A stretch of 64,000 nt of DNA, from the NCBI RefSeq assembly GCF_027912415.1, contig NZ_CP115175.1, positions 1,736,001 to 1,800,000 of the forward strand, written 5' to 3'. The stretch comes from Homoserinibacter sp. YIM 151385. Lineage in GTDB: Bacteria; Actinomycetota; Actinomycetes; Actinomycetales; Microbacteriaceae. The notes under the pieces were generated by a model. That model was not told where the DNA came from. It did no database searches and saw nothing but the letters and a program-made list of their open reading frames with translations. The position numbers were made by a program, and so were the translations under genes. Each line of letters starts with the position of its first letter. Within the stretch, counting starts at the first letter, position 1. This document shows, in pieces, positions 7,306 to 7,949 of the stretch.

Positions 7306-7387
7306 GGCGTCGAGCCTACCCGGGGGCGCCGGCGGGAGCCCTGCCTGCTCGGCCGCGCACCCTCCCGCCGCCCCCCTCCGCCCCCCT

Positions 7388-7482
7388 CCCCTTCCGAAAT
7401 GCAGGACGGAAGCCGTTCCGGAGGCGGAGGCCCTCGGCGCCGGCGGCGAGTGGGGCTCGCCCGTCCTGCATTTCGGAAGGGG
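7388..7482. repeat. Long inverted repeat with 22-bp perfect arms
   Basis: Left arm 7388-7409 begins CCCCTTCCGAAATGCAGG; the right arm 7461-7482 is its exact complement. The 51-nt loop is GC-rich and partly self-complementary. No gene end lies right beside it, so a terminator role is less obvious than for the other hairpins. It shares the core TGCATTTC with the inverted repeat at 51467. Confidence 0.8.
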
Positions 7483-7537
7483 GGGGGTGCGGGCGGAGCG
7501 GGGCGGATGGGGGTGACGGGGGCGGGGCGGGAACGGC

Positions 7538-7570
7538 GAAGCCCCCGGGCCGTGAGGCGCCGGGGGCTTC
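7538..7570 (-). terminator. Hairpin terminator of the small-peptide gene
   Basis: 11-bp perfect stem GAAGCCCCCGG/CCGGGGGCTTC with an 11-nt loop, about 50 nt downstream of the stop codon of the 25-residue ORF. It would end a transcript of roughly 200 nt that carries only that ORF. Confidence 0.75.
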
Positions 7571-7618
7571 GGTGATTCGTTGCGGCACTGCTGGATCAGC
7601 AGCTCCGGACGAGGATGC

Positions 7619-7696
7619 CTACTGGCAGCTGTCGCACTGCAGCAGGTCCATCGGGTCGACCGGGATGTCGTAGCCGTCGATGCTGTCGTTGTCCAT
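7619..7696 (-). CDS. Solitary 25-residue acidic peptide with C-terminal CxxC
   Basis: Short ORF starting at ATG 7696 with a GAGGGGG ribosome-binding site a few bases upstream. The peptide is 25 residues, with seven Asp and a C-terminal LLQCDSCQ (Cys21 and Cys24). I do not recognise a family. Three independent signs support a real gene: the RBS, a promoter with an overlapping perfect palindrome 70-100 nt upstream, and a strong terminator downstream. No modification enzyme, transporter or protease gene is adjacent. It could be a ribosomal natural-product precursor, a metal- or redox-responsive peptide, a signalling peptide or a regulatory leader. Function is unknown. Confidence 0.6.
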   Translation of the reverse strand: MDNDSIDGYDIPVDPMDLLQCDSCQ

Positions 7697-7760
7697 GTGG
7701 GACCCCCTCACTGTGTCTGGAAATCTGGGCCCGTCGCCGTCTCCGGCGCCGAGGTTCCCC

Positions 7761-7793
7761 ACTATATAGCCGGAATGACAGGTGTGTCATTCC
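7761..7793 (-). promoter_or_regulatory. Promoter with overlapping GGAATGACA-N4-TGTCATTCC operator for the small-peptide gene
   Basis: A perfect 9-bp inverted repeat with a 4-nt spacer lies at 7772-7793. On the minus strand it ends 2-3 nt before a strong -10-like box (CTATATAGT, 7761-7769), unusually AT-rich for this genome. Part of the left half (ATGACA) sits at a -35 distance of about 16 nt. A bound repressor would block RNA polymerase. The leader between TSS and ATG would be about 55-60 nt. Confidence 0.6.
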
Positions 7794-7949
7794 CCTAGAT
7801 GTAGTGGTTTCGGCGTGTCGCACCGACTGGGCCCAGACTACGGGCGACCACCGACATCCGAAGTCCCGAAACCCGTGCGCGCGCCCGGCGTGTCGCGCCG
7901 AGCCCGGCACCCGCTTGCGCGGGACCGCATCCTGCGCTGGGCTGGGCGC

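Follow-up and report, generated by a model that had tools for sequence, protein, structure and literature searches.

A 25-codon gene in the window, the 64,000-nucleotide stretch of DNA analysed here, is predicted to encode, as a separate, diffusible dithiol peptide, the C-terminal CxxC redox tail that belongs to the only ribonucleotide reductase (RNR) catalytic subunit of the cell; the peptide would re-reduce the NrdA disulfide (probability approximately 0.87). A redox cysteine-pair tail is fused to almost every class I RNR, which needs it to stay active; this flexible arm moves in, accepts the disulfide and is in turn re-reduced by thioredoxin or glutaredoxin. The assignment derives from sequence comparisons, namely homology to fused tails, a cysteine-less NrdA end, co-occurrence, purifying selection, pairs of NrdR boxes and two genomes without an nrdA-linked copy.

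The gene was identified by ORF analysis, homologue search and a codon test at positions 7619–7696 of the minus strand (78 nt including the stop codon), and encodes the acidic peptide MDNDSIDGYDIPVDPMDLLQCDSCQ (net charge −7), which ends in ..DIPVDPMDLLQCDSCQ. A ribosome-binding site (AGGGGG, 7703–7708, minus strand) precedes the ATG by a few bases. The promoter scan revealed a −10 hexamer TATAGT (7761–7766) and a −35 hexamer ATGACA (7785–7790), both on the minus strand, and the resulting sigma-70-type site ATGACA-18-TATAGT (7790–7761) fits 10 of 12 consensus positions and had no counterpart in shuffled sequences. The −35 hexamer lies within a perfect palindrome, GGAATGACA-N4-TGTCATTCC (7772–7793), which other genera also have 5′ of their free-standing copies. 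This palindrome is the sole match in the window at ≤2 mismatches, did not occur in 100 shuffles, and is present in the entire 2.88-Mb host genome once exactly, once with 1 mismatch and once with 3 mismatches. Thus, the original prediction of a genuine 25-residue gene with ribosome-binding site, promoter, palindrome and regulation of its own was confirmed, as was its expectation that gene callers often overlook so small a gene; the palindrome, which it had placed over the −10 box, covers the −35 hexamer and the spacer instead. The 11-bp terminator it had proposed was recovered by the inverted-repeat search as a GC-rich hairpin 3′ of the gene (7537–7571, minus strand) with perfect 12-bp arms (7537–7548 and 7560–7571). 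The hairpin probably acts as a terminator, a role that is plausible rather than firm as there is no U-tract. Between this hairpin and hadA, a further 30-nt inverted repeat (93%, 51-nt loop, 7380–7490, TTCCGAAATGCAGGACGG / CCGTCCTGCATTTCGGAA) was observed. The genes downstream on the same strand are hadA-like, hadB-like (MaoC) and murB.

The two sides of the palindrome are occupied by a pair of NrdR boxes that had escaped the original prediction. Box 1 (CCACTACATCTAGGGG; core CTACATCTAG) is located at 7792–7807 and box 2 (TCCGGCTATATAGTGG) at 7759–7774 of the minus strand, separated by a 17-bp spacer, as assigned from the sequence by the box-pair rule (PMC9110341, PMC12051234). The right half of box 2 is intact and the left half is degenerate in the window's genus. 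In dozens of genera, the region 5′ of the free-standing copies follows the approximate consensus gcgacacgccgaaACACTACATGTAGTGGAATGACAnnnnTGTCATTCCCGTTATATAGTG, the first and last parts of which are the NrdR boxes, 17 bp apart. The box pair was present at 45 of 50 free-standing copies and the strict palindrome at 39 of 50; among the named loci, the values were 74 of 80 and 63 of 80, respectively, and the 897 kb around those 80 loci contained 74 box-pair matches in total. In the host genome the box-pair pattern occurs only twice, at the tail gene and upstream of nrdA. NrdR is encoded in genomes G000, G019 and G056, and the 17-bp spacer falls within the 14–17 bp of the NrdR regulon. NrdR box pairs lie about three helix turns apart (PMC9110341); the Streptomyces coelicolor protein binds best at a spacing of 15–17 bp, and repression in vivo in E. 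coli was seen over the same range (PMC12051234). These features suggest that NrdR, the RNR repressor, would co-repress the tail gene together with nrdAB via the box pair. The palindrome between the boxes is absent from the host nrdA promoter and may be the site of a second factor or part of the −35 element; in G019 a recognisable NrdR pair occurs without the palindrome. The 1-mismatch palindrome (L043 1501–1522, host 491940–491961) lies behind a GCGACACGCCCGGAA, which also precedes the palindrome of the tail promoter, with a DNA-polymerase-like ORF on one side and an ORF of 167 aa on the other; no NrdR boxes were seen there. Directly 5′ of NrdR box 1 (about window position 7810–7822), a conserved GCGACACGCCGAAA was found upstream of free-standing copies and, in part, in the nrdA promoter (GACACGCCCACTAG). 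A SigR/SigH-type promoter (consensus GGAAT-N18-GTT) would fit many relatives and was rejected; the window's genus has GCT for GTT.

A single RNR catalytic subunit (PF02867) was detected in the host genome, a class I NrdA with an ATP-cone and an adjacent NrdB. Its C-terminus, ..ARKGFGGLGK, contains no cysteine. In the NrdA alignment, the active-site and radical cysteines C225, C439 and C454 are invariant, presumably the equivalents of C225, C439 and C462 of the E. coli enzyme. As NrdA retains these cysteines, it requires a disulfide reductant after each turnover. The peptide search yielded three copies in the host genome: the one in the window, a second in the nrdA–nrdB interval (2829166–2829234) and a third, weaker match at 582571. 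At the second locus, the nrdA stop codon is followed 2 bases later by the ATG of MDDVIDGYDIPVDPMDLLQCESCQ in another frame and then by nrdB. The third copy adjoins ssb, and so does the copy on plasmid pCM2.

The same motif was found fused to the C-terminus of NrdA in families f5, f10, f16, f19, f38 and f45, with ends such as CPVDPMEALQCESCQ and CPIDPQERLQCDSCQ; f5, f10 and f16 belong to the same order, f38 and f45 elsewhere in the class. Further fused NrdA ends are ..MVDGVACPVDPMEALQCESCQ (G177), ..DDATCPVDPQERLQCEACQ (G141), ..PLCPIDPQERLQCDSCQ (G194) and ..SACPIDPQERLQCESCQ (G223), that of f19 is slightly divergent (..CPVDPQERLDCEACQ), and the NrdA of more distant actinobacteria ends in ..CSIENGEDCEACQ. 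Because the fused state is more widespread, it is probably ancestral, and the tail was probably detached in the Microbacteriaceae. The third cysteine of the examined fused forms (..CPVDP) is gone from the detached tails, which mostly have V or I instead, so their chemistry may differ slightly from that of the fused forms; both cysteines of the CxxC pair are invariant in the peptide alignment. In the Microbacteriaceae, 48 of 49 NrdA ends examined have no cysteine, the exception being a reading-frame run-on, and they carry a conserved [KR]GFG-type motif that could possibly serve as a docking site for the acidic peptide. AlphaFold2 modelling of a naturally fused NrdA (L035) with a 15-row alignment gave a mean pLDDT of 51 and a pTM of 0.33, values too low to support any reading of structure or docking.

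Searching 199 related genomes with the peptide gave 72 positives at a loose threshold, and 57 genomes of the same family contained a convincing match. With NrdA counted at 73–100% identity and partial genes included, all 56 NrdA-bearing genomes of the family had the peptide, and 56 of the 57 peptide-bearing genomes had NrdA; in G116, which is 77% complete, the peptide was present and no RNR was detectable. Family members negative for the peptide have an NrdE-like RNR (about 30% identity), and in all 15 sampled peptide-negative relatives the NrdE had a CVSCxL tail of its own. The usual arrangement in Microbacteriaceae is one copy between nrdA and nrdB plus one free-standing copy. G019 (complete, a single contig of 927,303 bp) and G056 have one free-standing copy and none between nrdA and nrdB, so action in trans seems unavoidable there. 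G019 is probably Tropheryma whipplei Twist. For T. whipplei, a class Ic RNR is the only one listed in a review (PMC4009431). Seven tail-like matches were found in G045 (L318–L320), several of them on small contigs that could be mobile elements.

For the last 18 codons of the 50 free-standing copies, pS was 0.43 and pN 0.062 (pN/pS about 0.14), values that are descriptive as the pairs are not independent; the other two frames reversed the pattern. Linked and other copies gave a pS of 0.52 and a pN of 0.13, so the free-standing group is the more conserved. Among members of the genus, the coding sequences are too similar for the comparison, with no synonymous changes. Across genera, synonymous change far exceeded amino-acid change, the outcome on which the original prediction had staked its peptide. 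The pattern indicates purifying selection on the codons, i.e. the peptide is conserved and not merely the DNA or RNA.

The peptide is also carried by phages phiPsal1, CN1A, CMP1 and Pan2 and by Clavibacter and Leifsonia plasmids; taken alone, the matches in CN1A and CMP1 are weak (E of about 1 to 3). No RNR catalytic subunit was found in the six phage and plasmid records examined. In IMG/VR, a relative is encoded on 305 contigs, and all 80 contigs examined contained a short ORF ending in LQC[DE]SCQ; in the stretch examined, nrdA occurred on none of these 80 and nrdB on two. PF02867 was absent from 20 longer viral records, which are fragments, so that this absence is suggestive only. On two viral contigs without nrdA (L226 1738–1812 and L263 5001–5075), the 25-codon tail gene is flanked by the genes for the terminase large subunit and the portal protein. 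Plasmid NZ_CP065038.1 encodes a tail peptide of about 33 aa (L130 4962–5063, WP_223361114.1) that is annotated as 'ribonucleotide-diphosphate reductase subunit beta', which is probably a transferred misannotation.

Other explanations of these data were considered. The peptide might be a regulator that mimics the RNR tail, occupies the active-site cleft and inhibits or tunes NrdA, as would suit a gene with its own promoter and several differentially regulated copies per genome; small RNR inhibitors do exist, e.g. yeast Sml1. We regard this as unlikely, since something must carry out the reduction for an NrdA that itself lacks a cysteine tail; moreover, both peptide cysteines are invariant, the redox motif is exactly what single-copy genomes retain, and an RNR inhibitor would not be expected on phages. 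Slightly less probable still is that the linked copy, joined to NrdA by frameshifting or readthrough, forms the true tail, with the window copy as a back-up or relic. Most linked copies share one relative frame, as such joining would predict, but over more than 30 loci with a clear junction each of the three possible frames relative to nrdA is represented among the tail ORFs that follow its stop codon, which speaks against programmed frameshifting, and most of the linked ORFs have their own start. A programmed frameshift was rejected on the basis of these three frames and of genomes without a linked copy; G019 and G056, together with the stronger conservation of the free-standing copies (pN 0.062 versus 0.131), likewise speak against a joined tail.

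The original prediction had favoured a signalling, metal-responsive or precursor peptide. An unrelated metal-binding, signalling or modified precursor peptide that resembles an RNR tail by chance would be short and contain CxxC, as observed, and its modification enzymes might be encoded elsewhere. However, we consider this highly improbable, as the fused NrdA homologues, the co-occurrence with a cysteine-less NrdA, the shared NrdR boxes and the paralogue between nrdA and nrdB all point to an RNR tail; a search of Pfam and NCBIfam with the peptide gave no family match above the cut-off. A RiPP precursor was rejected: as already stated in the original prediction, no modification genes are nearby, and in the window and most of the named loci the gene is flanked by hadA/hadB-like genes and murB instead.

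According to the detached-tail reading, the NrdA active-site cysteines would be oxidised to a disulfide in each turnover, and the free 25-residue peptide and its nrdA/nrdB paralogue would serve the cysteine-tailless NrdA as an exchangeable dithiol shuttle that cycles from oxidised NrdA to thioredoxin, glutaredoxin or mycoredoxin and back. From sequence we infer dithiol exchange, binding to NrdA, repression by NrdR and the identity of the final reductant. An untethered 25-mer would need a sufficient concentration to work, which speaks against this reading, and we know of no precedent for an untethered tail of 25 residues. A tail acting in trans is chemically reasonable in view of two other systems: in yeast RNR a subunit is served by the tail of its neighbour (PMC3618301), and in the split class II enzyme of Pseudomonas aeruginosa a separate polypeptide, NrdJb, mediates dithiol exchange (PMC4520616).

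Like the tails of NrdA, NrdE and Rnr1, the peptide has its CxxC pair at the extreme C-terminus, is homologous to NrdA tails and is present wherever NrdA of the detached type occurs. Unlike them, it has no covalent link to the catalytic subunit: it is encoded by a separate gene of about 23–30 residues, often in several unlinked copies, and is mobile on phages and plasmids. We therefore regard it as a detached variant that would work like a class I RNR tail. With NrdJa/NrdJb of P. aeruginosa (PMC4520616) it may share the distribution of catalysis and dithiol exchange over separate polypeptides, here encoded by separate ORFs; however, that system is a class II, B12-dependent enzyme in which NrdJb is a full RNR subunit, whereas the host has a class I NrdA and a 25-residue piece from unlinked loci that is also viral. 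NrdA is likewise encoded in pieces in Aeromonas phage Aeh1 (nrdA-a/nrdA-b, PMC3653736), where intervening DNA divides the coding region; in the present case the detachment is confined to the redox tail. NrdH, glutaredoxin and thioredoxin are also small dithiol proteins that serve RNR, but a thioredoxin fold takes about 75–110 residues, far more than the 25 of the peptide, which would replace the tail itself. The open-access literature yielded no earlier account of a class I RNR with a detached tail, subscription papers being outside the search. The arrangement would be a split RNR cut to its smallest piece, and mobile, and the detached class I tail appears to be new.

Few enzymes are better studied than the essential RNR, whose redox tail is taught to be a swinging arm fused to the enzyme. 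In the present case, this tail has apparently been cut off and retained as a protein that ranks among the smallest essential-looking ones, so that the need for tethering can be tested directly. The finding would explain a small, often unannotated gene in hundreds of genomes, probably including that of a human pathogen with one RNR. It would also extend the NrdR regulon by one gene, and it suggests that phages have an auxiliary gene of 25 codons that acts on host dNTP synthesis. We consider it reasonably likely that in much of the family the only RNR works with an untethered, exchangeable micro-peptide as redox coenzyme, and that phages and plasmids carry the 25-codon gene alone to raise the dNTP supply from the host enzyme.
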